From assembly GCA_017617575.1 (NCBI GenBank), contig JAFZVY010000161.1, positions 1-41,887 of the forward strand: a DNA stretch of 41,887 nt, given 5' to 3'. The first letter of the stretch is position 1. Every line of letters starts with the position of its first letter. Source of the DNA: Bacteroidaceae bacterium (GTDB lineage: Bacteria; Bacteroidota; Bacteroidia; Bacteroidales; Bacteroidaceae). Positions 8,948-32,855 of the stretch are shown here, piece after piece. The notes beneath the pieces are model-generated. The model worked only from the letters and a program-made list of their open reading frames with translations, searched no databases and had not been told where the DNA came from. A program made the translations under genes and the position numbers.

Positions 8948-9020
8948 GGGCCCCCCGACCCCTCAACTTAGCGAAGCGATCTCACTGACCGCAGGGAAGT
9001 AACGGGGCGGCCATCCGGGT
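8948..9020 (+). repeat. Stop-abutting GC-rich hairpin B carrying nested palindrome A (filled copy 1)
   Basis: GGGCCCCCCGACCCC (8948-8962) and CGGGGCGGCCATCCGGGT (9003-9020) are the two halves of element B. Between them lies palindrome A (8967-9002; GCGATC/GACCGC stem). The copy at 32631-32667 has the same halves joined by only CGAA, so this looks like A inserted into the loop of B. It begins directly after the trxB TAA. Confidence 0.85.
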
Positions 9021-9029
9021 TATTCTATA

Positions 9030-9112
9030 GTTTCTAGTGGCTCTAGTTTTTTCTAGGGCTTCTAGTTTCACTAGTTAATCTAGATAATCTAGGGCTTCTA
9101 GTTTAACTAGCT
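9030..9112. repeat. CTAG-rich degenerate repeat
   Basis: Nine CTAG tetramers in about 85 bp, built from words like GGGCTTCTAGTTTNACTAG. CTAG is scarce in most bacterial genomes, so the density stands out. Confidence 0.8.
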
Positions 9113-9120
9113 CTCCGCGA

Positions 9121-9168
9121 GAACTAAAAAACTTAAAAACTAACAAACATAAAAACTTAAACACACAT
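9121..9168 (+). repeat. 8-bp tandem array (AAACTTAA type) ending at a start codon
   Basis: Units GAACTAAA, AAACTTAA, AAACTAAC, AAACATAA, AAACTTAA, ACACACAT, then TTT and the ATG at 9172. The same unit fills the leader of the ATPase gene (10802-10841) and a long array at 20040-20127. Confidence 0.85.
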
Positions 9169-9171
9169 TTT

Positions 9172-10704
9172 ATGAAAGCGAAAGAATATTGGCGACTGTA
9201 CCGATTAGTGTCCAAGACCAAGGGCTTAGGTGAAAAGCGCCACGTAATGTTTGAACAGAATAGGGCTATGAAGTGGTTGGGTTATCTCTTTGCCGCCTTC
9301 TGGTGCGCTTATCTCCTGTTCTTCGGAGTAGTATTTGGTAATGCCTTCTCAGACGGTCCGATAGAAGGCTTTGACATCATTGACGGAGGACTGATGGTGT
9401 TCCTTGCACTTGATTTCGGAATCCGCTTCATGCTTACCGAGACCCCTGCACAGGAGGTCAAGCCGTTTAAGCTGATGCCAATATCCACCAAGTTCCTTAT
9501 CAACATATTCCTTGTGCGAAGGATTCTCTCTGCCTTCAACCTCGTGTGGCTGTTCTTCCTCGTACCCTTTGGATTGATTCAGTTACCACATTACTACGGG
9601 CTTGGCGGATTCTTCATCTGGCTCTTTGCATGGTGGCTCGTCTTTGCCATCCACAGTCAGGTCTATCTCTTGTGGCGCACGATAATCAACCGTAATTTCC
9701 TCTATGCACTCATACCGATAGCCATCTATGCATTCTTCTTTTATGCAGGACTATTTGATGACGACTATACAAGGACGGTCTTTGGGGACAACGTGCAGTG
9801 GTTGTTCTACTCCTGCTTGTATTGGTGGCGTGGCGTGCTTGACGGAAGCATCGTTCCGTTCATCACACTCTTTGCCATCCTTGCGGTGTTCTTCTTCCTC
9901 AATCAGGTTGTCCAGAACAAATCCATCTATCGTGAGATAGCTGAGGTGCAGGAGTCAAAGGTGAAGTCAAGGGAGATGACTCTCTTCAACCGCTTCGGTA
10001 TCATCGGCGAATACCTCAAGTTGGAGGTAAGGTCAGTCATTCGTAATGCAGTGGTGCGCAAGCAGTTCCTCCTTGGAGTGTTCTTTATGCTGCTGCTCTC
10101 TTGCATGACGGCATTCTCGCCTGTCTATGACAATAACCTCTTCATGAAGGCTTACATAAGCATGTACTGCTACTGCGTACTTGCCACCATGACGCTTGTC
10201 AACGCCATGTGTCCTGAGGGTAACTACATCGACGGCCTCATGGCTCGCAAGGAGTCAGTGCTCTCGCTCCTCAAGGCAAAGTATTACTTCAACCTTGCCA
10301 TGTTCCTTATACCATTCTGCGTGTTCCTCGTAACTGTCTTCCAGGGAAAGAGCACCATTGGCGAGAGCCTTGGCTGCATGCTCTTCTCGGCAGGAGTCGT
10401 AATGCCAGCGTTGTTCCAGATGGCTGTCTATAATAACATCACCATCGACATGAACAAGAAGCTGACAAGGGCTGGCAGAAGCAGCAAGATGCAGATAATC
10501 GTGTCATTCGTGGCATTGTTTGGCCCAATGATTATCATGTACGTGCTGATGACCGTCATTCCTGACTATAGCTCACTCATCCTCGGAGCTATTGGTGTGG
10601 TAGGTATTGCGACCCATCCTCTGTGGCTCCGCAATGTCTATAACCGCTTCATGGCTCGCAGATATAAGAACATGGACGGATTCAGGTCAAGTAGAAACGC
10701 TTAA
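9172..10704 (+). CDS. DUF5687-family ABC-type membrane permease
   Basis: 510 residues, strongly hydrophobic, with roughly ten to twelve membrane segments separated by short charged loops (for example WLGYLFAAFWCAYLLFFGVV near 35-54 and a second cluster after residue 290). The opening KAKEYWRLYRLVSKTKG and the general layout match the Bacteroidetes DUF5687 family. That family pairs with a stand-alone ABC ATPase, and one follows at 10846. The natural substrate is not known for the family. The leader is an 8-bp tandem array that runs almost to the ATG. A GC-rich hairpin starts within 3 nt of the stop codon. Family assignment is from sequence appearance and context. Confidence 0.8.
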   Translation: MKAKEYWRLYRLVSKTKGLGEKRHVMFEQNRAMKWLGYLFAAFWCAYLLFFGVVFGNAFSDGPIEGFDIIDGGLMVFLALDFGIRFMLTETPAQEVKPFKLMPISTKFLINIFLVRRILSAFNLVWLFFLVPFGLIQLPHYYGLGGFFIWLFAWWLVFAIHSQVYLLWRTIINRNFLYALIPIAIYAFFFYAGLFDDDYTRTVFGDNVQWLFYSCLYWWRGVLDGSIVPFITLFAILAVFFFLNQVVQNKSIYREIAEVQESKVKSREMTLFNRFGIIGEYLKLEVRSVIRNAVVRKQFLLGVFFMLLLSCMTAFSPVYDNNLFMKAYISMYCYCVLATMTLVNAMCPEGNYIDGLMARKESVLSLLKAKYYFNLAMFLIPFCVFLVTVFQGKSTIGESLGCMLFSAGVVMPALFQMAVYNNITIDMNKKLTRAGRSSKMQIIVSFVALFGPMIIMYVLMTVIPDYSSLILGAIGVVGIATHPLWLRNVYNRFMARRYKNMDGFRSSRNA

Positions 10705-10845
10705 GAGACCCACCCCATCCCTCCCTAAAGGGAGGGGGAGAAGTTACCAAGGGCGACATCCATCATCTTTTCGACCGTCTTTGGTCGAAAGCCGTCCGCA
10801 AGAACTAAAAAACTAAAAAACTTACAAACTTAAAAACTTAGAACA
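10705..10845 (+). repeat. Repeat-built spacer between permease and ATPase
   Basis: It holds, in order, a stop-abutting GC-rich hairpin (CCCTCCCTAAAGGGAGGG, about 10719-10736), AAGTTACCAAGGG shared in inverse at about 7944, a hairpin TTTCGACC-GTCTTT-GGTCGAAA (10769-10790), and five 8-bp units (10802-10841) ending 4 nt before the ATG. Confidence 0.8.
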
Positions 10846-11571
10846 ATGACTTTATCATTATCAAATATAAAGAAGTGCTTCGGAGAAAAGGTGGCACTCG
10901 ACATAGAACAATATACAGTGAATGATGGCGAGATAATAGGTCTCGTGGGTAATAACGGTGCTGGTAAGACAACCATGTTCCGTGCAATCCTTGACCTTAT
11001 CAAGCCAGAGGAAGGCGTGGTACTCATTGACGGCATCGACCCTTCAAAGAGTGAGGACTGGAAGACCGTTACGGGTGCTTACGTGGATAGCGGTTTCCTT
11101 ATCGACTACCTTACTCCTGAGGAGTATTTCGACTTCATCGCCAAGGTGTCAAATGTGAGCAAGGAGGAGCTTGAGGAACGCCTGAAGCCTTTCGCAGGAT
11201 TCATGAATGGCGAGGTGATGGGACAGAACACGCTCATTCGTAACCTCTCAATGGGTAACAAGCAGAAGGTGGGAATCATAGCTGCTATGATTACGCACCC
11301 TAAGTTGCTCATCCTTGACGAGCCATTCAACTTCCTTGACCCTACTTCACAGCTTGCAATGAAGGGAGTCATCGAGAACTATAACAAGGAGACGGGCGCA
11401 ATAGTCCTCGTCAGCTCGCACAACCTTACTCACACCATAGACATCTGTACTCGTGTCACTCTCCTTGAACACGGCAAGATTCTTATGGATTATGACAAGA
11501 CAACGCATAATGACCTGATGAAGGAGATAGAGGACTATTTCGTTGGTCAGGCACCAGTGACACAGGAATAA
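10846..11571 (+). CDS. ABC transporter ATP-binding protein
   Basis: 241 residues, a single nucleotide-binding domain. Walker A GNNGAGKT (35-42), a signature segment written LSMGNKQ (134-140) instead of LSGGQ, and Walker B LLILDEP (154-160) followed by FNFLDP are present. The H-loop lies in VLVSSHNLTH. It most likely energises the DUF5687 permease upstream, forming a two-protein exporter-type complex at the inner membrane. The substrate is unknown. The 8-bp array in its leader mirrors the one before the permease. Confidence 0.88.
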   Translation: MTLSLSNIKKCFGEKVALDIEQYTVNDGEIIGLVGNNGAGKTTMFRAILDLIKPEEGVVLIDGIDPSKSEDWKTVTGAYVDSGFLIDYLTPEEYFDFIAKVSNVSKEELEERLKPFAGFMNGEVMGQNTLIRNLSMGNKQKVGIIAAMITHPKLLILDEPFNFLDPTSQLAMKGVIENYNKETGAIVLVSSHNLTHTIDICTRVTLLEHGKILMDYDKTTHNDLMKEIEDYFVGQAPVTQE

Positions 11572-11868
11572 TTGTATTTGTAGTAAAAGGGAGTAAAAAC
11601 TTGTAATCTTGTAGTAAAAGGGAGTAAAAAGAAGTAAAGGGGAGTAAAAAGACGAATGACTGTTCGCTGTTTTTTGAAGAACGAAAATTTAGAAAATTAA
11701 AGAAAATTTGTTTCATCTCATTTTCTATTGTTTTCGTTCTCATTTTTACGAAGAATATTATAAGAAATTTTTTTTAATTTTCGTTTATCTAAAACCACTT
11801 TGCGATGAACATTCGTCTCTTTACTCCTTTTTACTCCAATTTACTCCCCTCAAAAAAAATAACAAAAT
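11572..11868. repeat. Composite inverted-repeat region with MITE-like element 2
   Basis: This 297-bp gap opens with GGGAGTAAAAA-type direct repeats (11579-11650). It then holds the AACGAAAATTTAGAAAATTA element (left arm 11680-11709; shortened right arm about 11765-11786). It ends with the inverse of the outer repeat, ATTCGTCTCTTTACTCC (about 11811-11827) and more TTTACTCC words. The outer arms (GTAAAAAGACGAATG and CATTCGTCTCTTTAC) pair, so the whole block could fold as one nested hairpin. The TTTACTCC words recur at about 15586-15635. No gene or clear promoter was seen. Confidence 0.7.
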
Positions 11869-12477
11869 ATGAAAAAGATTATCTACATTATCATGTCGGT
11901 GTTGCTGCTTTCGTCATGTAGCACCATGAAGAAGTTGGCAGAACCGTCAAACACATCGGCTTATCGTAAGCCTATAAGGGAGTTGAGGGTCTCAGGCGGA
12001 CGTGTGAGTGTGGATAATGGTACTTCATCATCTTCCGAGGTGTCAATGTCTGAACTTGCCCGTGCAGGACGCAAGCTCGGCTTTGACGTCGAGTTGAGTG
12101 ACGACCGCCGTCTCATGACAGAGGCAGCCACATGGATAGGCGTGCCTTACCGTAGTGGTGGTGCTGACCGTAGCGGTGTGGATTGTTCAGGACTTGTTTA
12201 CTGTCTTTATGGTAGCGTTTATGGACAACGATTTGAGAGGTGCAGTAGTTATGACATGTTTCATAAGTATTGCACTCCTGTCAATGCAAGCCAGTTGAAG
12301 CAGGGCGACCTCGTGTTCTTCACTACCGACAACTCGGGAGGCAGGATAGGTCACTCAGGCATCTATCTCAAGAATGGCAAGTTTATCCATGCAAGCTCGT
12401 CAAAGGGAGTTATCATAAGCAACTTGAATGAGCAATATTGGAGTAAACACTGGTTTGCTGGTGGAAAAGTAAGATAA
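11869..12477 (+). CDS. NlpC/P60-family lipoprotein (C40 peptidase)
   Basis: 202 residues. A lipoprotein signal MKKIIYIIMSVLLLSSC places the lipidated Cys at 17. The C-terminal half is an NlpC/P60 domain: GVDCSGLVYC carries the catalytic Cys106, GHSGIYL the His162 and FIHASS the third polar residue His174. Such enzymes cleave peptidoglycan stem peptides in the cell envelope. The segment between about 25 and 85 is unremarkable and may be a spacer. It stands alone, between a repeat block and the epimerase gene with its own promoter. Confidence 0.92.
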   Translation: MKKIIYIIMSVLLLSSCSTMKKLAEPSNTSAYRKPIRELRVSGGRVSVDNGTSSSSEVSMSELARAGRKLGFDVELSDDRRLMTEAATWIGVPYRSGGADRSGVDCSGLVYCLYGSVYGQRFERCSSYDMFHKYCTPVNASQLKQGDLVFFTTDNSGGRIGHSGIYLKNGKFIHASSSKGVIISNLNEQYWSKHWFAGGKVR

Positions 12478-12501
12478 AAAGGAAAATTTATTCCTTTTAT
12501 C

Positions 12502-12532
12502 TTTGCCTGAGAAATATTTATACCTATATTTG
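12502..12532 (+). promoter_or_regulatory. Bacteroidetes-type promoter of methylmalonyl-CoA epimerase gene
   Basis: TTTG (12502-12505), a 19-bp spacer, then TATATTTG (12525-12532), a full match to the -33/-7 consensus. It lies about 60 bp before the ATG at 12594. Confidence 0.8.
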
Positions 12533-12593
12533 CCCTACAAGAAAATACCAAGAATATTACAACTTATAATTAACTAATACTTTTTACAAATTT

Positions 12594-13004
12594 ATGAAGA
12601 TTTCACGTATTGACCATTTGGGCATCGGTGTCCAAAGTATTGACGAGGTACTTCCTTTCTATGAGAATGTACTTGGACTTAAATGTTATGCTGTTGAGGA
12701 AGTTGCTGACCAAAAAGTAAAGACAGCTTTCATCAAGGTGGGAGAGGTAAAGATTGAGCTTCTCGAACCAACATCAGAGGACAGCCCTATCGCCAAGTGG
12801 CTTGCCAATGGTGGCAAGGGAGTTCATCATGTGGCTTACGCCGTGGAGGATGGCGTTGCAGAGGCACTCGTAGAGACAGAAGGCAAGGGCTTGCGTCTTA
12901 TTGACAAGACTCCACGTCTGGGTGCAGAGAACATGATGATTGGATTCCTCCATCCAAAGTCAACGGCTGGCGTACTCACAGAACTTTGTGAACCAAACAA
13001 GTAG
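12594..13004 (+). CDS. mce: Methylmalonyl-CoA epimerase
   Basis: 136 residues of the vicinal-oxygen-chelate fold. It interconverts the (R) and (S) epimers of methylmalonyl-CoA so that mutase product can feed the decarboxylase encoded downstream. It opens KISRIDHLGIGV with the metal ligand His8. KGVHHVAY (75-82) and VLTELCEP (Glu130) supply further ligands. It heads the propionate-forming cluster 12594-17764, with its own promoter. A GC-rich hairpin with nested palindrome starts 2 nt after its stop, so read-through into mmdA is uncertain. Confidence 0.93.
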   Translation: MKISRIDHLGIGVQSIDEVLPFYENVLGLKCYAVEEVADQKVKTAFIKVGEVKIELLEPTSEDSPIAKWLANGGKGVHHVAYAVEDGVAEALVETEGKGLRLIDKTPRLGAENMMIGFLHPKSTAGVLTELCEPNK

Positions 13005-13006
13005 GA

Positions 13007-13076
13007 GCCCCCCGACCCCTCAACTTAGCGAAGCGATCTCACTGACCGCAGGGAAGTAACGGGGCGGCCTTCGGGT
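13007..13076 (+). repeat. Stop-abutting hairpin B carrying nested palindrome A (filled copy 2)
   Basis: Nearly identical to 8948-9020: GCCCCCCGACCCCTCAA, then palindrome A (13024-13059), then CGGGGCGGCCTTCGGGT. It begins 2 nt after the epimerase TAG. Confidence 0.85.
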
Positions 13077-13130
13077 AAAGACTGAAGGTTAGGGACAAAA
13101 TTCAACTATTATAATATTCCGACCTGTACG

Positions 13131-13153
13131 TTTTGAATTCTTGGTACTATTTG
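13131..13153 (+). promoter_or_regulatory. Weak promoter candidate for mmdA
   Basis: TTTTG at 13131-13135 and TACTATTTG at 13145-13153, one base longer than the TAnnTTTG consensus and with a short spacer. Tentative. Confidence 0.3.
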
Positions 13154-13246
13154 CCAATGAAAAAAGCAGAAGTGATTGTTTATGACAATACAAGTATTCA
13201 ATCGTTCAGATGTTTTTTCTAAATCAGAAAGGCTGTCTTCCCCCTT

Positions 13247-13283
13247 TTTTCCGGATGGCCGCCCCCTTTGGGGGTCGGGGGGC
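13247..13283 (-). repeat. Hairpin B, empty and inverted, in the mmdA leader
   Basis: The reverse complement reads GCCCCCCGACCCCCAAAGGG, then GGCGGCCATCCGG, the unfilled form of element B. It ends about 7 nt before the mmdA ATG and would put a strong GC hairpin across the ribosome-binding region. Confidence 0.8.
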
Positions 13284-13289
13284 TATTTC

Positions 13290-14861
13290 ATGTCAAAACA
13301 AACAGAAAGAATACAGGAGTTGATTGAACTCCGCAAGAAAGCACGTATTGGCGGTGGCGACAAGGCCATCGACAAGCAGCATGAGAAAGGAAAGCTTACG
13401 GCTCGTGAACGTATCGCATTGCTCCTTGACGAAGGCAGTTTCGAGGAGATGGATATGTTCGTTGAGCATCGTTGTACAAACTTCGGAATGGAAAAGAAGC
13501 ACTATCTTGGTGATGGTGTCGTAACAGGTTCTGGTACTATCGACGGACGCCTCGTCTATATCTTTGCACAGGACTTTACCGTGAGCGCAGGTTCTCTCTC
13601 CGAGACACTTGCCCTCAAGATATGCAAGGTGATGGACATGGCAATGAAGGTGGGTGTGCCTTGCATCGGTCTCAATGACTCAGGTGGCGCACGTCTTCAG
13701 GAAGGTATCAATGCCCTTGCTGGCTATGCAGAGATATTCCAGCGCAACATCCTTGCTTCAGGTGTCATTCCTCAGATTTCAGCCATAATGGGTCCTTGTG
13801 CTGGTGGTGCCGTTTATTCACCAGCTCTCACGGACTTCACCCTTATGGTGGAGAATACCTCATATATGTTCCTCACAGGTCCTGGCCCTGTCAAGGCTGT
13901 GCTCGGTGAGGTCGTTACTCAGGAACAGCTTGGAGGCGCAAGCGTTCATGCCACAAAGTCAGGTGTCACTCACTTCACGGCATCCACGGAGGAAGAGGCT
14001 ATCGGCATGATAAAGAAGCTTATCAGCTACATTCCTCAGAACAACCTTGAGCGCACTCCACGCGTCGAGTGTACTGACCCTGTAAGCCGTATGGAGGATT
14101 ATCTTAACGACATCATCCCGGACAATCCTAACATGCCATACGATATGTATCAGGTCATCACGGGTATTGTGGACAATGGCGAGTTCTTTGAGGTTCAGCC
14201 TAACTACGCTAAGAACATCATCATCGGATTTGCACGTTTCAACGGACAGTCAGTAGGTATCGTGGCTAACCAGCCAAAGCAGCTTGCTGGAGTGCTTGAC
14301 TGCAACTCTTCACGCAAGGGTGCGCGCTTCGTCCGTTTCTGCGATGCGTTCAACATTCCTATCGTCACTCTCGTTGACGTTCCGGGCTTCCTCCCAGGTA
14401 CGGCTCAGGAGTACAATGCCGTTATCCTTCACGGTGCAAAGCTCCTCTATGCTTACGGAGAGGCAACAGTGCCAAAGGTGACCGTTACGCTTCGCAAGTC
14501 ATACGGCGGTTCTCACATCGTGATGTCATGTAAGCAGTTGCGTGGTGACATCAACTACGCTTGGCCATCAGCCGAGATTGCCGTCATGGGTGCAAGCGGT
14601 GCTGCTTCCGTCCTCTATGCCAAGGAGGCAAAGGCTCTCAAGGACGAGGGCAAGGTGGAAGAGGCAAAGGCATTCATCAAGGAGAAGGAAGACGAATACA
14701 CCAAGCTCTTTGCCAATCCTTATCAGGCAGCTAAGTACGGATATATTGATGATGTCATAGAGCCACGTAACACACGTTTCCGTGTCATCCGTGCACTTGC
14801 TCAGCTTGAGAACAAGAAGATGAAGAACCCAGCAAAGAAGCATGGTAATATTCCATTGTAG
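13290..14861 (+). CDS. mmdA: Methylmalonyl-CoA decarboxylase alpha subunit (carboxyltransferase)
   Basis: 523 residues from [15 protein letters not shown]; an in-frame extension to 13176 runs through repeat sequence and is rejected. It transfers CO2 from (S)-methylmalonyl-CoA to carrier-bound biotin, giving propionyl-CoA. It has the two-lobed carboxyltransferase fold, with [19 protein letters not shown] and [17 protein letters not shown] in the N lobe and [20 protein letters not shown] and [15 protein letters not shown] in the C lobe. Its neighbours are the delta, biotin-carrier and beta subunits, so a Na+-pumping decarboxylase is more likely than a propionyl-CoA carboxylase. No biotin carboxylase gene is present. 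A GC-rich hairpin begins at the base after the stop codon. Confidence 0.93.
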
Positions 14862-15105
14862 GACCCACCCCGGCCCTCCCTATAGGGAGGGAGACAGATC
14901 CGCCCATACGGACACAGTCCCTTTAAGGGGAGGAAAAGAATACTTACGAACGATTATTGCGAACTGAGTAACTCAGCCCCCTCCCTGTAGGGCGAATGAG
15001 GGCGTAGAAGAGAGACTTAATGTCTCTCTGTCCTGAAATGAGGGGAGAACAGTGCCATGTTCGACGGTGGTTGGATGGGGTGGGTCTTTGGAGTGGACCA
15101 ATTAA
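14862..15105. repeat. Inverted-repeat-bounded spacer between mmdA and the delta subunit gene
   Basis: It starts GACCCACCCCGGCC with hairpin CCCTCCCTATAGGGAGGG right after the mmdA stop. It ends GGATGGGGTGGGTC (about 15074-15087), the inverse of the opening. Between them lie several short GC-rich palindromes. No gene was recognised. Confidence 0.7.
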
Positions 15106-15116
15106 TTATTTAAGTT

Positions 15117-15452: not shown

Positions 15453-15459
15453 TTTAATT

Positions 15460-15487
15460 AGTAATGAGTAATTAGTAATGAGTAATG
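15460..15487 (+). repeat. 7-bp tandem repeat, 4 copies (AGTAATK)
   Basis: AGTAATG, AGTAATT, AGTAATG, AGTAATG, just after the delta subunit stop. Confidence 0.85.
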
Positions 15488-15500
15488 GGAGTAGGGAACC

Positions 15501-15571
15501 AGCGCCGTCTTTGGCGCTTTCGTCCTCAAGCCATACTTTGCTTGAGCCTCAGCAAGTCGTCCTTGGCTTGC
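15501..15571. repeat. Three consecutive hairpins with RTCYTT-type loops
   Basis: AGCGCC-GTCTTT-GGCGCT (15501-15518), CTCAAGC-CATACTTT-GCTTGAG (15525-15546) and GCAAGTC-GTCCTT-GGCTTGC (15552-15571; one G-T pair). The stems differ completely while the loops stay alike. Similar hairpins are at 10769-10790 and 17799-17820. Confidence 0.8.
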
Positions 15572-15645
15572 CCTTCGGGATTCGTCATTCGTCTCTTTAC
15601 TCTTCTTTACTCCTTTTTACTCCATTTTACTTCGTTTTTATCAAG

Positions 15646-16356: not shown

Positions 16357-16376
16357 AACAAATATTTCAAATCCGT

Positions 16377-16426: not shown

Positions 16427-16441
16427 TAAGATTTTTCGATT

Positions 16442-16460: not shown

Positions 16461-16477
16461 ACAAACTTTAATTGATT

Positions 16478-17820: not shown

Positions 17821-17824
17821 AAAT

Positions 17825-19625: not shown

Positions 19626-20039
19626 TACTAAATAATTTCTTATCGGGATGGAGAAATATTTTCTTCGGGCGCAAAATTCTGATTGGTTGTCTTTATTCGT
19701 TTTCAGTCTCTTGGAACTTTACGATAAGGTATTCCGAAGGTGGAGAAAGATAATCGTACAAAAAGGACAGGAATGCCGTTTTGCTCCTAGTCTCCCATCC
19801 CAAATTATTGTATGCTCTATCGTTATGACAACGTAGTGGCTCCGCTATTTCTCCGCTCCTATAGTGGAGGCATAGTGGTCTCACTTTGGTGGCATAATGG
19901 TCTCATATAGGACTCATATTAGTCTCATGATGGACTTGTGACGTAGTTGCGTAAATATTAGTAATGGATGAACTTGCTACCGCGAGAACATGAAAATAAA
20001 GAACCTAAAAACTTATGAACTCATACCATAAGTCGGTGG

Positions 20040-20127
20040 GAACTTACAAACTCATAAACTCAAGAACTAAATAACTTATAAACTTAAAAACTCAAAAACT
20101 TACGAACCTAAAAACACATAAACTCAA
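20040..20127. repeat. 8-bp tandem array, 11 copies (RAACTYAW)
   Basis: Eleven uninterrupted 8-bp units such as AAACTCAT, AAACTCAA, GAACTAAA, AAACTTAA and AAACTTAC. Three more units lie at 20001-20024. It is preceded at about 19982 by CCGCGAGAAC, which also precedes the arrays at 9121 and (as CCGCAAGAAC) 10802. Confidence 0.88.
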
Positions 20128-21490: not shown

Positions 21491-21519
21491 GGCCCCCTCG
21501 CGACCTCCCCGAGGGGAGG
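21491..21519 (+). repeat. Stop-abutting GC-rich hairpin after the AAA ATPase gene
   Basis: GGCCCCCTCGCGACC then CCTCCCC-GA-GGGGAGG, beginning at the base after the TGA. It resembles the elements after trxB, dnaJ and lysA and may act as the 3' end of the mRNA, although no U-tract follows. Confidence 0.75.
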
Positions 21520-21568
21520 CGATAAAAAACCGTATTTTAAGAACACATTATAAAATTTAAACATTATT

Positions 21569-25360: not shown

Positions 25361-25417
25361 TTGCTTCGTGTCAAGATTTCAAATAAAAAAGTTGATAAAT
25401 AATAAATATATTTGAGA

Positions 25418-25452
25418 TTTTGCGTTAATCTCGAAAATAGTCCGTAAATTTG
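25418..25452 (+). promoter_or_regulatory. Bacteroidetes-type promoter of galE
   Basis: TTTTG (25418-25422) and TAAATTTG (25445-25452), spacer 22 bp, 28 bp before the ATG at 25481. Confidence 0.75.
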
Positions 25453-25480
25453 CATACTTAAAAAAGCAAACAGACAAAAT

Positions 25481-26515
25481 ATGAAAGAGACAATACTTGT
25501 AACAGGTGGAACAGGATTTATCGGTTCTCACACTACAGTTGAACTTCAGCAAGCAGGATACGACGTCGTTATTATCGACAACCTTTCAAACTCAAACGTC
25601 AATGTTCTCGACGGTATAGAAAAGATTACAGGCATCCGCCCAGCATTTGAGCAGGTTGACCTTAATGACTTCGATAAAGTAGAAGCTGTTTTTGCGAAAT
25701 ATCCAATCAAGGGAGTTATTCACTTCGCAGCATCTAAGGCTGTTGGTGAATCTGTAGAAAAGCCTCTTTTGTATTATAGGAATAATCTCAATTCCCTCAT
25801 GAACGTGCTCGAGCTTATGTCTAAGTACGGAACAAAGGGAATCATCTTCTCATCATCTTGTACTGTATATGGACAGCCAACAAAGGAGAACCTCCCTGTA
25901 ACAGAGAACGCTCCAATCCAGAAGGCACTCTCTCCATACGGTAACACAAAGCAGATTAACGAGGAGATTATACAGGATTATATCCACTCTGGTGCACCAA
26001 TCAAGAGTATCATTCTTCGTTACTTCAATCCAATAGGTGCACATCCATCAGCACTCATCGGTGAACTTCCTAACGGAGTTCCTATGAACCTCATTCCATT
26101 TGTCACTCAGACTGCTATCGGAATCCGTAAGCAGCTCAAGATATTTGGTAATGACTATAATACTCCAGACAAGACTTGCATCCGCGACTACATCTATGTA
26201 GTTGACCTTGCAAAGGCACACGTTAAGGCTATGACACGTGTACTCGACAAGGAGACCGAGCCAGTCGAAGTATTCAACATCGGTACAGGTCACGGCTATT
26301 CAACACTCGAAATCGTAGAAGGATTTGAGCGTGCAACAGGTGTTAAGCTCCCATGGGAGTATGCACCACGTCGTGAGGGTGATATCGAAGCAATTTGGGG
26401 AAATGTTGACAAGGCAAACAAAGAGCTTGAATGGTCAGCAGATACTCCACTCGACGAGATTCTCGCATCCGCTTGGAAGTGGCAAGAGCATCTCCGTGAA
26501 GCAGGTATTCAGTAA
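25481..26515 (+). CDS. galE: UDP-glucose 4-epimerase
   Basis: 344 residues, the standard length. It interconverts UDP-glucose and UDP-galactose for galactose use and polysaccharide synthesis. NAD-binding GGTGFIGSH lies at 9-17. The catalytic Tyr153 and Lys157 are in SPYGNTKQINEE, and the Ser of SSSCTVYG (124-131) completes the short-chain dehydrogenase triad. RYFNPIGAHPS is a GalE-type motif. It is a single gene between a terminator-separated nifJ and a long hairpin region. Confidence 0.95.
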   Translation: MKETILVTGGTGFIGSHTTVELQQAGYDVVIIDNLSNSNVNVLDGIEKITGIRPAFEQVDLNDFDKVEAVFAKYPIKGVIHFAASKAVGESVEKPLLYYRNNLNSLMNVLELMSKYGTKGIIFSSSCTVYGQPTKENLPVTENAPIQKALSPYGNTKQINEEIIQDYIHSGAPIKSIILRYFNPIGAHPSALIGELPNGVPMNLIPFVTQTAIGIRKQLKIFGNDYNTPDKTCIRDYIYVVDLAKAHVKAMTRVLDKETEPVEVFNIGTGHGYSTLEIVEGFERATGVKLPWEYAPRREGDIEAIWGNVDKANKELEWSADTPLDEILASAWKWQEHLREAGIQ

Positions 26516-26727
26516 TTAAAAAAGAATAAGGAAAAATATCTGTAATACTACATATTAAGTAGAAATTGCAGATTATGTCGTGTTTTATTTTGTGTTTGTG
26601 TTGTGGCTATTCTTTTGCGTGAGCAACGGGGTAGCCCATTTTATTGTTTAAAACACAATGTGTTAGGAATTCATAAAACCCAGCACCACGCGTATTGATG
26701 GATTAAGTTTTATATATACATCCGTAC

Positions 26728-26795
26728 ACAAAGACACCCATATCTTCTTCTCGTCAGAAGTACATCTGACAGTAAGAAGATATGGGTGTCCTTGT
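26728..26795. repeat. Long two-tier hairpin
   Basis: The outer 22-bp stem pairs ACAAAGACACCCATATCTTC.. (26728-26749) with 26774-26795, with one mismatch. The inner stem is GTCAGA-AGTACA-TCTGAC (26753-26770), with 3-nt symmetric bulges. No T-run follows, so it is not a plain terminator. Confidence 0.85.
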
Positions 26796-26931
26796 ATTAT
26801 GATATATATTGTTGACATGAGCTTGTCATTTGTTTTTACAGATTCCAGCCGAGATAAATGTGCAGATGTGTAATATTATTATTTACAACATTCCCCTTGT
26901 TTGTGAAAAAAGTTGATTCTGCATTGCACAC

Positions 26932-26969
26932 AAAAAAGGAGTTGAAAAGAATGTGCCTTTTCAACTCCT
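26932..26969 (-). terminator. Intrinsic terminator of the fimbrillin-like lipoprotein gene
   Basis: Minus strand: AGGAGTTGAAAA (26969-26958) pairs perfectly with TTTTCAACTCCT (26948-26937), followed by TTTTT (26936-26932). It lies 23 bp past the stop codon. Confidence 0.85.
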
Positions 26970-26991
26970 CTTGTATGTTTGTTAGTCTTCT

Positions 26992-27882
26992 TTACAAAGT
27001 TACTGTGCCTAAGTCACCCCAATCCGAATTTACGGAGAAACTAAATGATACGTTGGAATAATCAAAGAAAACACCTGAGAATGTGGTAGTATAACCAATC
27101 TTTAATGGTACTTTGTTATATGTCTTTGGGTCAATCACATTATTTGTAGCGTCAAGACCTGCAATAGTCATATTGACATAAGAATTATCTTCGGTAACTG
27201 CATCTTGTGTCAGGAATGTATATGTGAAAGTGGTAATCTTGCCATTCGTTCTTTGTTCTGGTGACACATTAACGGCTGCAGTACGACTGGATGTAGCGGC
27301 TGCATAGCCTGTAATGGCATTGTAAACATTACTTGCTCCGTCAATAGTGAATTGTATCTTCTGTACTTCATCGGGTATGTAACCGTTGAAGTCAAAGGCT
27401 ATCTTAGCAGACTTATGGACAAATGGAACTTCCACATTATTAGCTGTAGTCTTGGAAATGGTAATATCTGCTGTATGGCCATAAAGGTCAACGTACCTTG
27501 AGAATGCAATCTCCGTAGGGTCGTCCATATCAGGATGGTCGCTATCATTGTGACCCAGAACCACAAGCTTGTATGTTCCACACTTCACATTCTCCAAATT
27601 GATGACGCCAAAGGAAGAAGAGGAACTCTCCTGTGTACATTCCTTGTACTTGGTGTAAGAACCATCATCATTAGCCTTGTAAAGCACTAAATCCAGTTTG
27701 GAGAACGCATCTTGCAAGGTATTAGCCCTCGTAACTGTCTGTGAGATATTGATGCCAGAAACATAGAAGCGTACTGATACATAGTCATCACCCTCATCAT
27801 TCGTTACCAAATCATCATTTGTGCAAGCACAAAACATCATTACAGACATAGCTGTAACAATTGAGAAAAATAGTTTTTTCAT
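26992..27882 (-). CDS. Fimbrillin-like (FimA/Mfa-type) lipoprotein
   Basis: 296 residues. A signal peptide with lipobox MMFCAC puts the lipidated Cys at about 20, followed by an acidic TNDDLVTNDEGDD. The body alternates beta strands and has the TRAN segment near residue 53 and the PLKIGYTTTFSGVFFDYS..WG ending seen in FimA/Mfa-like surface pilin or pilin-anchor proteins of Bacteroidales. It is probably exported to the outer surface. No partner anchor, tip or Mfa2 gene is adjacent, so it could instead be an isolated surface lipoprotein. Its upstream region carries a candidate -7 box (TACTTTTG, 27964-27957) and 14-bp TTAGCC repeats in the leader. Family call moderate; export confident. Confidence 0.65.
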   Translation of the reverse strand: MKKLFFSIVTAMSVMMFCACTNDDLVTNDEGDDYVSVRFYVSGINISQTVTRANTLQDAFSKLDLVLYKANDDGSYTKYKECTQESSSSSFGVINLENVKCGTYKLVVLGHNDSDHPDMDDPTEIAFSRYVDLYGHTADITISKTTANNVEVPFVHKSAKIAFDFNGYIPDEVQKIQFTIDGASNVYNAITGYAAATSSRTAAVNVSPEQRTNGKITTFTYTFLTQDAVTEDNSYVNMTIAGLDATNNVIDPKTYNKVPLKIGYTTTFSGVFFDYSNVSFSFSVNSDWGDLGTVTL

Positions 27883-28497
27883 ATTGTTAAAGAAAATGTA
27901 TTATATTTGCCAATCATTTAGCCGTATTAGGTTAGCCGCATTTGATTAGCCAAAAGCAAAAGTAAACCTTTGCAACACAATAGGGTGAGAATCAACGCAT
28001 CTTTTGCGTTCAGCGAATGATTATCCGTGAATTACACAACAAAAGCCCTTGTTTTGTAATCTCCAGTTTACAATCTCAATTTAACATCAACATAATTGTT
28101 TTTATCGTAACACACGCCAGTCCCTTTAAGGTTATTGTTTTACCCCTCGCAAGGATGAAGGTGACTAGTGCTGTGCTTTAGGATAAAAGCATCGTATTGT
28201 ACATTGTGGTAATCGTTCATATATTATATATAATGTCATATTGAAGCTTGCAGTATGTCATAATGTTACTTGCTTCCGAACACTCTGTATCATTTCATCA
28301 TTCGTCTTATTGCAGAAGAATTACGAAGGACTCACGAGACATTAGCGAAGGATTGACGACGGATGACGATGTGTCATAATGTTATTTTCTTCTAATAATT
28401 CTTACAATTGTGAAAGGGACGTCAATAAAATTACTATGCGTGTAGGATAAGATTGGGAAAAAGTGTACCTTTGCACGTGTTTTATAAGTGGAATATT
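27883..28497. other. Divergent non-coding region with short repeats
   Basis: 615 bp. It holds TTAGCCG-type repeats at 14-bp spacing (about 27917-27950), a minus-strand -7 candidate at 27957-27964, a 20-bp near-direct repeat GTCATAATGTTAYTTKCTTC at 28257-28276 and 28373-28392, and the -7 box TACCTTTG (28466-28473) of the esterase gene. No ORF is credible. Confidence 0.65.
28466..28473 (+). promoter_or_regulatory. -7 promoter box of the esterase gene
   Basis: TACCTTTG matches TAnnTTTG; no clear -33 box. It lies within an in-frame 5' extension (ATG at 28453), which favours the start at 28498. Confidence 0.6.
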
Positions 28498-29307
28498 ATG
28501 AAATTAAGAATATCTTACATACTCATCTTGCTCTTAATGTGTGCAAAGTCATTTGCAGGCAAAGGATTTGTGGCTCATAAGGGTGAGGTACAAGGCAGTT
28601 ATAACTTCTGGTTCTATGACCCAGAGGAACAACATGACCCAAGGGCTCATTTCCCTCTTCTTATATTTCTTCATGGCCGAAGCCTGTGTGGAACAAACCT
28701 TGACAGGGTGAAAAGGTATGGCCCTATTCATGCAGTTGCCAAGGGTGCATATATAGATAGTTATATCATGGCGCCACAGAATCCGGGTGGAGCGTGGAAT
28801 CCAGACAAGCTTATGAAGATAGTGGAGTGGGCAAAGGAACACTATGCCATAGACGAATCAAGGATATATGTTTACGGTATGAGTCTTGGTGGTTATGGCA
28901 CGATTGACTTTGTTGCTGCCTATCCTGACAAGATTGCGAGTGCCATGGCAATATGTGGCGGAGCAAGTGCCAAGAATCTTGACGGACTGTCAAAAGTACC
29001 TTTGTGGATTGTTCACGGAACGGCAGACAGAGCCGTGCCTATTGCACAGTCAGATAAAGTTGCAGCAGCAATCAAGGCTACAGGTGACGATTCCAGATTG
29101 ATTTATACCAGACTCAAGGGTGTTGACCACGGACGTCCTGCAAGACTGTTCTACATGAATCAGACATACGATTGGCTCTTTTCCCATAGTCTTAATGATG
29201 AGGGCAGACCAGTAAACAGGGATTTTGAAATCACGTTAGACCTTCTTAATTCTGCATACCAGGATTTGGGAAAGGAAGAGCCTATAGACGAGGAATCGTA
29301 TAAGTAA
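28498..29307 (+). CDS. Secreted alpha/beta-hydrolase esterase
   Basis: 269 residues. MKLRISYILILLLMCAKSFA is a cleavable signal peptide. The alpha/beta-hydrolase fold shows the oxyanion-side LLIFLHGRSLCG (54-65), the nucleophile elbow YGMSLGGYG with Ser129, then HGTADRAVP with Asp177 and GVDHG with His211, a complete triad. It resembles the carboxylesterase / PHB-depolymerase-like esterases that Bacteroidales use on plant polysaccharides, but substrate cannot be read from sequence. It is monocistronic, with its own -7 box; a perfect palindrome ATGTAACA/TGTTACAT (29341-29356) with a following T-run may end its transcript. Confidence 0.88.
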   Translation: MKLRISYILILLLMCAKSFAGKGFVAHKGEVQGSYNFWFYDPEEQHDPRAHFPLLIFLHGRSLCGTNLDRVKRYGPIHAVAKGAYIDSYIMAPQNPGGAWNPDKLMKIVEWAKEHYAIDESRIYVYGMSLGGYGTIDFVAAYPDKIASAMAICGGASAKNLDGLSKVPLWIVHGTADRAVPIAQSDKVAAAIKATGDDSRLIYTRLKGVDHGRPARLFYMNQTYDWLFSHSLNDEGRPVNRDFEITLDLLNSAYQDLGKEEPIDEESYK

Positions 29308-29473
29308 ACATACTTTGTGATGTGGCTTTTATTTGTTATTATGTAACATGTTACATATTTTTTAAAGGTAACATAGTGTAAAGTCGTACATTCTTTCTGT
29401 TTAATTATCTATTATTTGCACGAAATGAAATATCCCCGTGCGGAAAAATGATATATAAAATTTCCTATTTTCC

Positions 29474-29504
29474 TTGGAAATGACTCTAAAAGGATGTATC
29501 TTTG
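29474..29504 (+). promoter_or_regulatory. Bacteroidetes-type promoter with no ORF behind it
   Basis: TTGG (29474-29477), a 19-bp spacer, TATCTTTG (29497-29504). The next credible start codon is over 300 bp away and behind a terminator. Confidence 0.75.
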
Positions 29505-29509
29505 CATTG

Positions 29510-29663
29510 TCAAAATAAAGGTGGCAACCTTGTGTTGCAAAATCTTTAATAGGCGTTAATATATGTTTGGTCGTTTTTCATAAAATAATTAGTTTTAAGG
29601 GTATTAAAAATAGGTGAACAATACGGTGTACGGATCGCGAGATTAGTACACCTAATTTTTTTT
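29510..29663 (+). ncRNA. Candidate small RNA, about 150 nt
   Basis: It is bounded by the promoter at 29474-29504 and an intrinsic terminator (GGTGTAC/GTACACC, then eight T). It starts with two small overlapping hairpins (AAGGT-GGCA-ACCTT and GCAAC-CTTGT-GTTGC), then an AU-rich middle. No ORF with coding character fits inside. It does not match the tmRNA, SRP RNA or RNase P sequences I know. The coordinates assume initiation about 6 nt past the -7 box. Confidence 0.55.
29625..29663 (+). terminator. Intrinsic terminator of the candidate small RNA
   Basis: GGTGTAC (29625-29631) pairs with GTACACC (29646-29652), closing a 14-nt loop containing TCGCGA. TAATTTTTTTT follows. Confidence 0.85.
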
Positions 29664-29700
29664 AAAAATGTTTTGGTATATGATTAGACTATGTTAATAC

Positions 29701-29738
29701 GTCAATATTTTTTACGAAGCTACGTAAAAAATATTGAC
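29701..29738. repeat. 16-bp perfect inverted repeat upstream of a lipoprotein gene
   Basis: GTCAATATTTTTTACG (29701-29716) and its exact reverse complement (29723-29738), loop AAGCTA. It lies about 50 bp ahead of the -7 box TAACTTTG (29789-29796), so it could be an operator or a transcript end. Confidence 0.85.
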
Positions 29739-29788
29739 AAAGTGTTTCTTTTATGCTCTTATTGGGATGTTGAGTGAAGGTTAGCCCT

Positions 29789-29796
29789 TAACTTTG
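29789..29796 (+). promoter_or_regulatory. -7 box of the small lipoprotein gene
   Basis: TAACTTTG matches TAnnTTTG; TTG at 29770-29772 is a weak -33. Confidence 0.55.
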
Positions 29797-29821
29797 TCGT
29801 GTAAGTAAAATGTGTGGATTT

Positions 29822-30385
29822 ATGAATACGACAATAAAGATTCTCTTTGCCACTCTGATGTTGGGTGGCTTTATGGCAAGTTGTAATGATAAGGATGAAG
29901 TGGCTAATCCTGATGATGAACCTATCTTGTATGGTGATATTGCGGATAGGGGCTTCTTCATTAATGGTGAAAGCAAGATACGTGGCTATTTCCCTAATGA
30001 TAGCATAATAAAGGGTTATACTACTCTTACACAGCATGTGATGCATTATACTACGCTGGATAGTGTGGAGCATACCAAGGTGTATGGCTATAACTTTGTC
30101 ATGGTGGCTGAGAAATTCTATAGGATATTTGGCTATGATGTTGCCTTTAATGACGATAGTACTCACATCACCTGTAATGCCAAGTTGTACTTTGAGAGTG
30201 ATAAATCCAAGGAGTATGATGTAACTGTGAACGCTTCCCTTGATTCCATAGGTAGACCGCAGCTTCCTATTGCGCGCGGAACGCTGGATGATGGAAGAAG
30301 TCTGATAATTCAGTTTAGGCGTGTGACTTATAAGTCAAAGTACTCTGATGAAACTCTCTCACCTGATGAGGAGTTTGACATCTAA
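29822..30385 (+). CDS. Small lipoprotein of unknown function
   Basis: 187 residues from MNTTIKILF; an ATG four codons upstream is possible but the shorter form gives a clean lipoprotein signal, ATLMLGGFMASC, with the lipidated Cys at about 21. The mature part opens NDKDEVANPDDEP and is predicted to be beta-rich with many aromatic residues (YGYNFVMVAEKFYRIFGYDV). I do not recognise a family. It has its own promoter and terminator, so it is a single-gene unit. The long hairpin 29701-29738 lies ahead of its promoter. Confidence 0.75.
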   Translation: MNTTIKILFATLMLGGFMASCNDKDEVANPDDEPILYGDIADRGFFINGESKIRGYFPNDSIIKGYTTLTQHVMHYTTLDSVEHTKVYGYNFVMVAEKFYRIFGYDVAFNDDSTHITCNAKLYFESDKSKEYDVTVNASLDSIGRPQLPIARGTLDDGRSLIIQFRRVTYKSKYSDETLSPDEEFDI

Positions 30386-30445
30386 ATATATTGATTTGGT
30401 TAAGAGGCGATGAATGATTCATCGTTGATTCTGGTTATATTTCGG

Positions 30446-30492
30446 TCCGTCCGACATGAGTTTTATTGGCTCTGTCAGACGGATTTCTTTTA
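30446..30492 (+). terminator. Intrinsic terminator of the small lipoprotein gene
   Basis: TCCGTCCGACA (30446-30456) pairs with TGTCAGACGGA (30473-30483) with one mismatch, followed by TTTCTTTTATT. Confidence 0.85.
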
Positions 30493-30614
30493 TTGCTGTA
30501 TGACTGTTAATCGACAGTTCTGTCAGTAAAGTCTGCCATTATTGCATAGTTTTGTCAGTTTTGCGTCTTGGCATTCATTTTGCTATATAATGTTGTAAAT
30601 ATAAAATTAGCATT

Positions 30615-31235
30615 ATGAGCGAAAATATTAACGAAGAAATTAAAGATGTAAACGAAGGCGCACAGGCAACTGACAACGCTGAAGATACAAATAATACTGA
30701 GGCTACAGAGGCAACAGAGACTGCTGAGGCTACAGAAGATGGTGCTGAGGCTGCTGCTGAAGAGCCAAAGGAACTGACGGTGGAGGAAAAGCTTGCACAG
30801 GCTGAGGCTCAGATTGAGGAACTCAAGAAGCAGGCTCTCTACAAGCAGGCTGAGTTTGACAATTTCCGTAAGCGTGTGATGAAGGAGAAGGCTGAGCTTG
30901 TCCTTAATGGTGGTACAAGGGTTATTACTAATCTCTTGCCATTCATTGATGACCTTGAGCGTGCTGACAAGAATATGGAGTCTCTTGAGGATGTGGCAGC
31001 TGTCAAGGAGGGTGTTACTCTCATCATCGATAAGTTCCTCAAGATTCTTGCTAAGGAGGGATTGCAGAAGATTGATGCCGTTGGCAAGGATTTCGATACT
31101 GACTTCCACGAGGCAATAGCAATGGTTCCTGGTCTTCCTGAAGACCAGAAGAACAAGGTTATTGATTGTGTTGAGTGTGGTTACACTCTTAACGGTAACG
31201 TCATCCGTCATTCAAAGGTTGCAGTAGCTCAGTAA
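30615..31235 (+). CDS. grpE: GrpE nucleotide exchange factor
   Basis: 206 residues. The cytosolic co-chaperone releases ADP from DnaK. The N-terminal 55 residues are acidic and Thr/Ala-rich, followed by a long coiled coil (about 58-100: LTVEEKLAQAEAQIEELKKQ). The family motif FDNFRKRVMKEKAE and the C-terminal beta domain (DTDFHEAIAMVPG, then GYTLNGNVIRHSKVAVA) are present. dnaJ follows; dnaK is not in the window. The gap to dnaJ is 222 bp and holds repeats. A -7-like TAATGTTG (30588-30595) lies ahead. Confidence 0.96.
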   Translation: MSENINEEIKDVNEGAQATDNAEDTNNTEATEATETAEATEDGAEAAAEEPKELTVEEKLAQAEAQIEELKKQALYKQAEFDNFRKRVMKEKAELVLNGGTRVITNLLPFIDDLERADKNMESLEDVAAVKEGVTLIIDKFLKILAKEGLQKIDAVGKDFDTDFHEAIAMVPGLPEDQKNKVIDCVECGYTLNGNVIRHSKVAVAQ

Positions 31236-31246
31236 AAAAATAAGAA

Positions 31247-31282
31247 CTAAGCGAAGCGGTCTCACTGACCGCAGGGAAGTAA
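31247..31282 (+). repeat. 36-bp palindromic repeat A, copy 5 (perfect stem)
   Basis: CTAAGCGAAGCGGTCTCACT continuing GACCGCAGGGAAGTAA, with a perfect GCGGTC/GACCGC stem and TCACT loop. It starts 11 nt after the grpE stop. Confidence 0.88.
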
Positions 31283-31322
31283 TTAAGAGTTAAGATTTGA
31301 AAATTAAGACTTAAGAATTAGT
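31281..31322 (+). repeat. 7-bp tandem repeat, 6 copies (AATTAAG type)
   Basis: AATTAAG, AGTTAAG, ATTTGAA, AATTAAG, ACTTAAG, AATTAGT, joined to palindrome A. Confidence 0.8.
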
Positions 31323-31457
31323 CGTAACTATCAAGACTTTAGCTTATAAAAAAAATCTTAATAACTTACCTCCTCCTCTTACATTAGTCACTCTCCATTT
31401 CGTGGGAGGACAGGGGTGGGGGACCTAAAAACTTAAAAAAGTTATCCAAAAACTTTT

Positions 31458-32627
31458 ATGGCACAGAAGAGAGATTATTATGAAGTCTTAGGCGTGGATA
31501 AAAGCGCTTCAGATGCACAGATAAAGTCAGCGTACAAGAAGATGGCTATCAAGTACCATCCTGACCGTAACCCTGGCAACAAGGAGGCTGAGGAGAAGTT
31601 CAAGGAGGCTGCAGAGGCTTACGAGGTTCTCCGCGACCCTCAGAAGCGTCAGCAGTATGACCAGTTTGGTTTTGCTGGCATGAATGGTGCTGGTGGATTC
31701 GGCGGTGGTGGTGCAAGCATGAATATGGATGACATATTCTCTATGTTTGGCGATATCTTCGGCGGTCACATGGGTGGCGGATTCAGCGGTTTCGGTGGAT
31801 TCGGCGGTGGTGGTCAGCAGTATCGCAAGCCTGTGTTCCGTGGACGTGACCAGCGTATGCGCATCCAGCTCGACTTGACTGAGGTAGTAAATGGTACTAC
31901 TAAGAAGTTCAAGGTGAAGAAGGATGTGAAGTGTGAGCACTGTAATGGTTCTGGTTCTGCTGATGGCAAGACAGAGACATGTTCTACGTGTGGTGGTAGA
32001 GGATTCGTCATTCGTCAGCAGCGTTCCATCCTTGGTATGATGCAGACACAGAGTGAGTGTCCTCAGTGTCATGGTGAGGGTACTGTAATCAAGAACAAGT
32101 GTCCATACTGTCATGGTGAAGGTATCGTGGCAGGTGAAAGCATAGAGGAGGTTAAGTTCCCTGCTGGTCTTCAGGAGGGTATGGTACTCAACCTTGAGGG
32201 TCGTGGAGGTGCTGGCCGTCATAACGGTGTGCCTGGTGACCTTCAGGTGGTTATCACAGAAAAGCCACATCCAGAGCTTGTACGTGATGGCAACGACCTT
32301 GTATATAACCTCTTGCTTACAATACCACAGGCAACACTCGGTTGTCAGGTTGAGGTTCCAACGGTAGATGGCAAGGCTAAGATAACAATTCAGCCTGGTA
32401 CACAGCCTGGTACTGTTCTCCGTCTTCGTGGCAAGGGTATTCCTCAGGTTCACGGATATGGAAGTGGCAAGGGTGATGAGTTGGTTAACATTAGCGTATA
32501 TATACCAAAGACTCTTACTAAGGAACAGAAGGCTGCACTTGAGTCATTTGCTGAGACTGATGAATTTGCTCCAGATGATTCAACAAAGAAGAGCATCTTC
32601 TCTAAGTTCAAGGCTATATTTGAATAA
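31458..32627 (+). CDS. dnaJ: Chaperone protein DnaJ
   Basis: 389 residues, the full type I form. It hands unfolded proteins to DnaK and stimulates its ATPase. The J domain (1-70) has the HPD triad at 34-36. A Gly/Phe region (about 76-125) follows. Four zinc-binding CxxCxGxG repeats are present ([32 protein letters not shown]; about 155-220), then the substrate-binding C-terminal domains. Its leader contains AAACTTAA-type units. A GC-rich hairpin element starts 3 nt after the stop. Confidence 0.97.
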
Positions 32628-32630
32628 GAA

Positions 32631-32667
32631 GGGCCCCCCGACCCCCGAAGGGGGCGGCCATCCGGGT
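32631..32667 (+). repeat. Stop-abutting hairpin B, empty form
   Basis: GGGCCCCCCGACCCC-CGAA-GGGGGCGGCCATCCGGGT. It is the same as 8948-9020 and 13007-13076 but lacks the nested 36-bp palindrome A. Confidence 0.85.
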
Positions 32668-32681
32668 CGCAGGGCATATAT

Positions 32682-32743
32682 AAACACAGAGGACACAGAG
32701 AACTCAGAGTTTTATCTCCGAGTATTCTCTGTGTCCTCTGTTT
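32682..32743. terminator. Long hairpin between convergent dnaJ and lysA
   Basis: The arms 32682-32709 (AAACACAGAGGACACAGAGA..) and 32716-32743 pair over about 27 bases with two mismatches, loop TTTTAT. ATTTTTG follows on the plus strand. The CTCTGTGTCCTCTG words recur at 3229-3254 and 4463-4492. Confidence 0.75.
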
Positions 32744-32827
32744 ATTTTTGACTTCAGAAGCGGACGCTTCTGACACGGTTGCTAAGCCCTTCTGACGATG
32801 GCTGTGTGCCTATGGTGCTTCCTTCTC

Positions 32828-32855
32828 CTCCCCTCGGGGAGGTCGGGTGGGGGCG
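32828..32855 (-). repeat. Stop-abutting GC-rich hairpin after lysA
   Basis: Minus strand CGCCCCCACCCGACC then CTCCCC-GA-GGGGAG, starting at the base after the lysA stop. Confidence 0.8.

Follow-up and report, generated by a model that had tools for sequence, protein, structure and literature searches.

C-rich hairpins at gene ends of a Bacteroidaceae genome as probable termini of short mobile elements

ERIC, RUP and Correia elements are intergenic and resemble miniature inverted-repeat transposable elements (MITEs): they are about 100–350 bp long and non-coding, with terminal inverted repeats. Here we analyze a 41,887-nt stretch of Bacteroidaceae DNA (contig JAFZVY010000161.1 of assembly GCA_017617575.1, or C76 in our numbering; "the window" is this whole stretch), in which C-rich hairpins begin at the stop codons of seven genes. 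We propose, with a probability of roughly 0.7, that these hairpins form the inverted ends of mobile elements that are short, non-coding, and present in many copies. The ends form related families, F1 to F5, and the habit of the elements is like that of MITEs and of repetitive extragenic palindromes (REPs) with their composites, the bacterial interspersed mosaic elements (BIMEs). The elements resemble ERIC, RUP and Correia in size, in having terminal inverted repeats, in lying between genes, and in being non-coding (as judged from their length and the gene calls). However, they lack target-site duplications, and we identified no parent insertion sequence (IS).

The part of PMC3733652 that deals with REP location describes most REPs in convergent gaps as lying less than 20 bp from 3' ends, REPs in co-directional gaps as adjoining the 3' end of the upstream gene, and GTAG REPs as often supplying a TAG stop codon. 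Like the GTAG and CGTC superfamilies of REP/BIME repeats described there, our elements are short palindromes (20–40 bp) with many extragenic copies, they occur as singles and as dimers, they lie near 3' ends in unidirectional and convergent gaps, and they may supply TAG stops. But neither GTAG nor CGTC is present as a fixed tag at one terminus of F1–F5 (by eye, in ends and flanks; TAG arises in only some of the F1 copies), a search of this genome found no PF01797 gene, and the elements here include a long directional form whose interior is partly conserved. As the tag is missing and no PF01797 gene was found, we do not class these elements as REPs, although they act like REP- or MITE-type insertions. 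The stop-abutting habit is shared with published REPs. By eye, we noticed no core-site motif of integron attC sites, for which no dedicated search was made.

Two other kinds of repeats are known from Bacteroidetes. The BrickBuilt MITEs of Porphyromonas gingivalis are also intergenic with terminal inverted repeats, but these repeats differ in sequence from those of our elements, and the portion of PMC4596501 on BrickBuilt structure reports 23-nt tandem repeats inside and, for three of the four copies that are intact, target duplications. The repeats of TnpA(REP) subclass 2.6, as outlined in a section of PMC6006769, are hairpins with further genomic copies as well, but no such gene is linked to F1–F5. 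Among titles and the first lines of abstracts in the open-licence literature, we found no paper on this element family, which does not imply its absence from print.

C-rich ends at stop codons

The original prediction was that the C-rich elements start 0–4 nt past the stop codons of seven genes, and these distances hold: 1 nt for trxB, 2 for a DUF5687 permease, 1 for mce, 0 for mmdA, 1 for an AAA ATPase, 4 for dnaJ, and 1 for lysA. Pfam and NCBIfam matches agree with all seven gene names. (For mmdA, the match to the NCBIfam model is under the cut-off and the match to Pfam Carboxyl_trans is strong; lysA is recognized solely through its Orn/DAP/Arg decarboxylase domains.) Single ends on the plus strand follow trxB (F1 at 8949..9018; the stop codon is 8945-8947), the DUF5687 permease (F3 at 10707..10736), and the AAA ATPase (F2 at 21492..21520). 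The other sites are composites. At 13006..13284 (plus strand), an F1 end follows mce and an inverted F1 end (13250-13284) stops 5 nt before the start of mmdA. At 14862..15086 (plus strand), an F3 end abuts the mmdA stop and is paired with an inverted GGATGGGGTGGGTC end (15073-15086, by eye). And in the convergent gap between dnaJ and lysA (32632..32854, no strand assigned), an F1 end follows dnaJ while an inverted F2 end (32825-32854) lies next to the stop of the minus-strand gene lysA.

Inverted copies had also been claimed upstream of three genes. Those before trxB (F5 at 7956..7993 on the minus strand, with its C-rich side toward the start codon, 21 nt away) and before mmdA were found by profile, while the one before dnaJ (31404..31425, minus strand) was seen by eye, with no match in the profile search. 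The claim of a CCTCCC..GGGAGG hairpin was true by eye for four of the seven sites (DUF5687, mmdA, AAA ATPase, and lysA) and failed for trxB, mce, and dnaJ. The dnaJ hairpin is CCCCC-GAA-GGGGG, and F6, a distinct repeat about 38 nt long, takes the place of the loop at trxB and mce (8965-9002 and 13022-13059; all by eye).

As had been supposed, the hairpins do not look like ordinary terminators: none of the six 3' elements that were scanned has a terminator-like site with a T-tract on the sense strand, and the seventh, at the AAA ATPase, was judged by eye. The scan did flag the start-side end before mmdA (plus strand) and, for the opposite strand, the elements at mce and dnaJ. Predicted RNA folds in nine stretches of the window were weak relative to shuffles (z from -2.2 to +0.3).

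The window belongs to G000, a metagenome-assembled genome (MAG) of 3.38 Mb in 162 contigs that is 86% complete. Among named genomes, its TrxB has its best matches in Bacteroidaceae MAGs from rumen and horse faeces. For the profile searches and distance counts in G000, we used the window and 60 other stretches, with a total of 854 kb (about a quarter of the genome). Of these stretches, L001–L020 were picked blind, and the contigs of ten were picked for holding GCCCCCCGACCCC. At the gathering score, Rfam had no match in the window and three matches in 7 of the 60 other stretches, none of them on an element. Genes were called with a home-made hexamer method (572 genes, 73% coding), which misses some genes and leaves starts uncertain.

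We seeded the families by hand and then searched the sample with profiles. F1 (the AGCCCCCCGACCCCCGAAGGGGGCGGCCATCCGG type) is a 35-nt sequence with 36 matches, 34 of them at E<1e-3; F2 and F3, the CCTCCC/GGGAGG hairpin families, have 9 and 17 matches, F4 has 12, and F5 has 9. Stem sequences vary among the families yet still pair (by eye). F6 (pattern AACTWAGCGAAGCG..TCTCACTGACCG..GGGAAGTAA) has 45 matches and occurs alone or in the loop of F1. Matches that started beyond model position 3 were left out, which gave a set of 80 C-rich ends. One of these has no neighbouring gene, leaving 79 distances, 46 for ends that face a stop and 33 for ends that face a start. Thirteen of the 79 distances (5 stop, 8 start) exceed 60 nt, which we attribute in part to missed genes and uncertain starts.

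Stop-facing ends begin from 2 nt before to 5 nt after the end of the stop codon in 33 of 46 cases (median 2 nt), and within 10 nt in 39. Uniform placement in the same gaps predicts that 2.1% would lie within 5 nt of a stop and 1.4% within 5 nt of a start. The excess at stops has a binomial p of about 2e-45, with an expectation that is somewhat too low given the missed genes. Start-facing ends lie within 5 nt in 7 of 33 cases and within 60 nt in 25 (median 28 nt), and the two sides differ at 5 nt (33/46 vs 7/33, Fisher p 1e-5). Thus, the stop side is special, but the start side is also nearer than chance. Across this quarter of the genome, distances to stop codons do not look like random placement, and the link to gene ends stands. 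In the blind stretches, the 11 stop-facing ends included 5 at a distance of 5 nt or less and 7 at 10 nt or less. In G019, the genome of a sister species, 17 of 42 stop-facing and 5 of 27 start-facing ends were within 5 nt, and long distances were commoner than in G000.

The C-rich side points toward the nearer coding sequence for 62 of 66 ends when both distances have to be in range, and for 64 of 74 with no range limit. Since it does so at starts as well as at stops, the C-rich side is not simply a 3'-end signal. Elements are hosted by 41 of 353 co-directional and 8 of 54 convergent gaps; of the 57 divergent gaps, only 1 hosts an element (p 0.02 against the other two kinds together). TAG stops are found at 13 of 39 genes that adjoin elements, vs 96 of 546 overall; where a copy lies at distance -2, its AG forms part of the TAG.

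We found 23 pairs of inverted, outward-facing ends, which form composites of 117–353 bp, several of which occupy an entire intergenic gap. Both ends come from one family in 15 of the 23 pairs, vs an expectation of 10.9 (p 0.013).

Filled and empty sites in related genomes

Among 45 genomes of the genus, 41 had a match for sufB-sufC, of which we fetched 30 loci, and we fetched 30 of 45 for murE-mraY. The sufB-sufC site is filled in four of 30 genomes (G000, G019, G001, and G027, the last degenerate by eye), and the element starts at the stop codon and ends a few nt short of the ATG. In eight of the 30, the gap is just 1–3 nt (for instance, TAA T ATG); in the other 18, it holds other sequence, from 15 to 1367 nt. 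SufB ends with SLEGTVG in all 12 of the filled and empty cases. The murE-mraY site is filled in two of 30 (G000 and G019), with a distance to the start of about 3 nt (by eye). And between mmdA and oadG, the same F3 ends are present in the window and in L114 (from G019), while the gap in L117 is 11 nt. One of the two explanations offered by the original prediction, that an element inserts at gene ends, gains support from inverted outward ends, multi-copy families, filled and empty sites, and patchy presence in the genus. The odd position of the hairpins becomes a testable insertion process, with filled and empty sites mapped in conserved operons.

Copies of a strict F1 pattern were unevenly spread: 61 in G000, 90 in G019, 27 in G001, 25 in G003, and 1–4 in each of three genomes, with the other 38 of the 45 having none (the reversed pattern, as a control, had no matches). 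In a wider search, the strict pattern was found in 5 of 301 genomes of the family. An F3/F5 pattern with one mismatch allowed was found in 30 of the 45 genomes, again unevenly; its reversed control had two matches overall.

The sampled stretches of G000 and G019 have 63 adjacent gene pairs in common, and for 49 of these, both gaps are at least 40 nt. Of the 49, 17 are clearly alignable and 21 are unalignable; 15 of these 21 have proteins of 88% identity or more on both sides. For instance, at L058:2169-2333, G019 has a C-rich composite and G000 has an inverted module of the GAATGAAGAA type, with flanking proteins that are 100% and 99% identical. At L070:17003-17187, F6 sits in the loop of F1 in G000 and the loop is plain in G019. 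With 8 fully alignable gaps excluded, the point where similarity stops is at most 5 nt from the stop codon in 22 of 38 cases; for the start, the same is true of 11 of 44. Between sister species of rumen Bacteroidaceae with near-identical flanking proteins, repeat modules can thus replace the intergenic sequence, which bears on the prediction of promoters, terminators, and operons in such uncultured genomes.

Gaps with matched inverted ends (score of 12 or more) account for 38 of 387 in G000 and 34 of 333 in G019, vs 1–2% for a control with mismatched ends. At this score they are not specific to the genus (9 of 204 at other genus loci and 20 of 273 in other Bacteroidales). G000 and G019 stand out only at a score of 20 or more (17/387 and 12/333, vs 3/204 and 3/273).

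Gaps also contain repeated AT-rich words (AACTTAAAAACTTA, GGAGTAAAAAGG, GAAAATTTAGAAAATTAAAG, and others), often as outward inverted ends, and these modules vary between the sister species. In the window, they are at 9109-9170, 10790-10845, 11578-11660, 15455-15640, 20010-20126, and 37309-37430. At L047:16133-16314, which parallels the filled and empty sites, G000 has 181 nt of AT-rich sequence and its gene terminates with a TAG at the module's edge; in G019, the genes overlap (frames by eye). Separately, the sufB-sufC gap of G042 (L252) holds a 199-nt AT-rich sequence with inverted arrays of words (by eye).

The long directional form of F1

Some F1 copies belong to a longer form of 120–160 nt. 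An alignment of nine copies shows three hairpins and an interior that is conserved in part. A covariance model of these (R1) has matches in at least 21 of the 45 genomes, with palindromic copies counted on both strands; among the matches listed, they are most numerous in G003, G019, G000, and G001. To count directions, we searched 64 of the 101 stretches with the model and used all 87 match rows. The nine model sequences had been chosen with CCCCCTAA at the stop side and were excluded from the count; some loci are orthologous between G000 and G019. For copies outside the model that have co-directional neighbours and a strand difference of at least 10 bits, the element follows the direction of the genes in 10 of 11 cases. 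Where neither neighbour is more than 80 nt away, agreement is 7 of 7 (two-sided p 0.016); with a farther neighbour, it is 3 of 4. Copies with a smaller strand difference were split (11 agree, 10 disagree).

In the alignment of the long form, 97.9% of cells pair. The count of cells changed on both sides reaches 4 (1 of 500 shuffles was as high), the count of pairs changed on both sides was reached by 44 of 500 shuffles, and further pair types were below every shuffle. The three sequences with the main paired change are sufB orthologues, so this is approximately one event. The direction bias hints at a constraint on the RNA of the long form, but covariation is thin.

A more speculative idea, which we consider improbable, is that the long form is a directional intercistronic RNA element. 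It would insert exactly from stop to start in tight operons and keep its sense, its conserved hairpins at the stop and the start would replace translational coupling by new control of the downstream gene, and its targeting would recognize the junction. If the long form does act as RNA, it would be a repeat family that rewires operons.

Alternative explanations, candidate movers and other features of the window

We have high confidence that the elements insert between genes. They lie in co-directional or convergent gaps. In our proposal, the ends begin at stops because the tolerated sites are the few nt that separate a stop from the start that follows, and because the stop side is further preferred. 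The element's own AG often completes a TAG stop. An enzyme acting in trans probably moves the elements, and once inserted, the transcribed spacer may loosen the translational coupling of the two genes. The transcribed RNA may also have a role, as the long form tends to follow the direction of the genes.

Several observations weigh against our proposal. Ends of different families are paired in 8 of the 23 composites, and a simple MITE would not show such mixing. None of the 23 pairs has a target duplication of three or more flanking bases, and two bases match in 2 of 23 (2.4 expected). In G019, 23 of the 42 stop-facing distances exceed 10 nt; this may be due in part to missed genes. PF01797 (the family of RAYTs, or REP-associated tyrosine transposases) has no match in G000, an assembly that is 86% complete; 20 of the 45 genomes have it (14 over the cut-off), with no relation to F1 counts by eye. 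No coding parent element was identified; a regular-expression search for F1 pairs 450–4000 bp apart gave four candidate pairs in the samples. Finally, the direction bias of the long form suggests selection on RNA as well.

In view of the PF01797 results, a RAYT seems doubtful as the mobilizer, and we rejected IS-type target duplication. The occurrence of F1 in viruses is doubtful too: one viral contig has the exact pattern, and its context looks chromosomal. Since target duplication was not seen, our first and weakly supported guess for the mover is a single-strand HUH enzyme of the IS200/RAYT type that recognizes hairpins. In G019, an IS200/IS605-type transposase (L196:1495-1935) lies among clustered palindromic repeats, with an F5-F1 composite about 450 nt away. 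The transposase has a YIKNQKEHH motif (by eye), which the classification given in a section of PMC6006769 assigns to subclass 1.2, not 2.6.

We also considered that placement might be purely passive: elements would insert anywhere, those that hit genes or promoters would be lost, and the remainder would be in short gaps and hence near stops. The gaps of 1–3 nt in related species, the unchanged C-terminus of SufB, and the avoidance of divergent gaps are all consistent with this. However, distances to stops are far shorter than distances to starts, even if some of the latter are overestimated because of mis-called starts. Host gaps (including the element) have a median length of 192 nt vs 211 nt for other gaps, a comparison that does not decide the matter. 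As a full account of the position, passive placement seems doubtful.

Somewhat less likely, in our view, is that intergenic regions are swapped whole, as cassettes, by recombination between copies instead of insertion by a transposase. This would fit the unalignable gaps between G000 and G019 with conserved proteins on both sides, the similarity that often ends within 5 nt of a stop or start, the C-rich and AT-rich modules within the same gap, and the pairs with mixed families. But the empty sites of 1–3 nt require an insertion step, and recombination requires shared flanks, which the differing gaps do not have.

Least probable, and quite unlikely, is the other explanation in the original prediction, that hairpins are kept after stops as signals for terminating transcription or protecting the mRNA, the C-rich stretch being a putative site of Rho loading or pausing: precise placement at stops, near absence from divergent gaps, a C-rich sense strand, stems that differ among families yet pair (by eye), and two stem pairs altered on both sides in long F1 would favor it, but as the cause of the position it is not supported, given the 33 of 79 ends that point in reverse at a gene start (for 25, at a distance of 60 nt or less), the orientation that follows the coding boundary in 62 of 66, the lack of sense-strand terminator-like sites at the six scanned 3' elements (though not at the start-side end before mmdA), the weak folds, the element-free sufB-sufC gaps in 8 of 30 species, and L052:17781-17923 (with its counterpart L235), where a terminator-like hairpin with T-tracts is present in both sister species (by eye) and a C-rich element in just one.

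The window has other features as well. Free copies of F6 lie at 3158..3195 (minus strand), 4394..4431 (plus strand), and 31245..31282 (plus strand). A large open reading frame (ORF) at 11-2830, which is helicase-like by eye, has atypical composition and was missed by the trained gene caller. And downstream of the ORF at 25481-26515, adjacent 48-nt arms form a large palindrome (26714-26809), perhaps a terminator.

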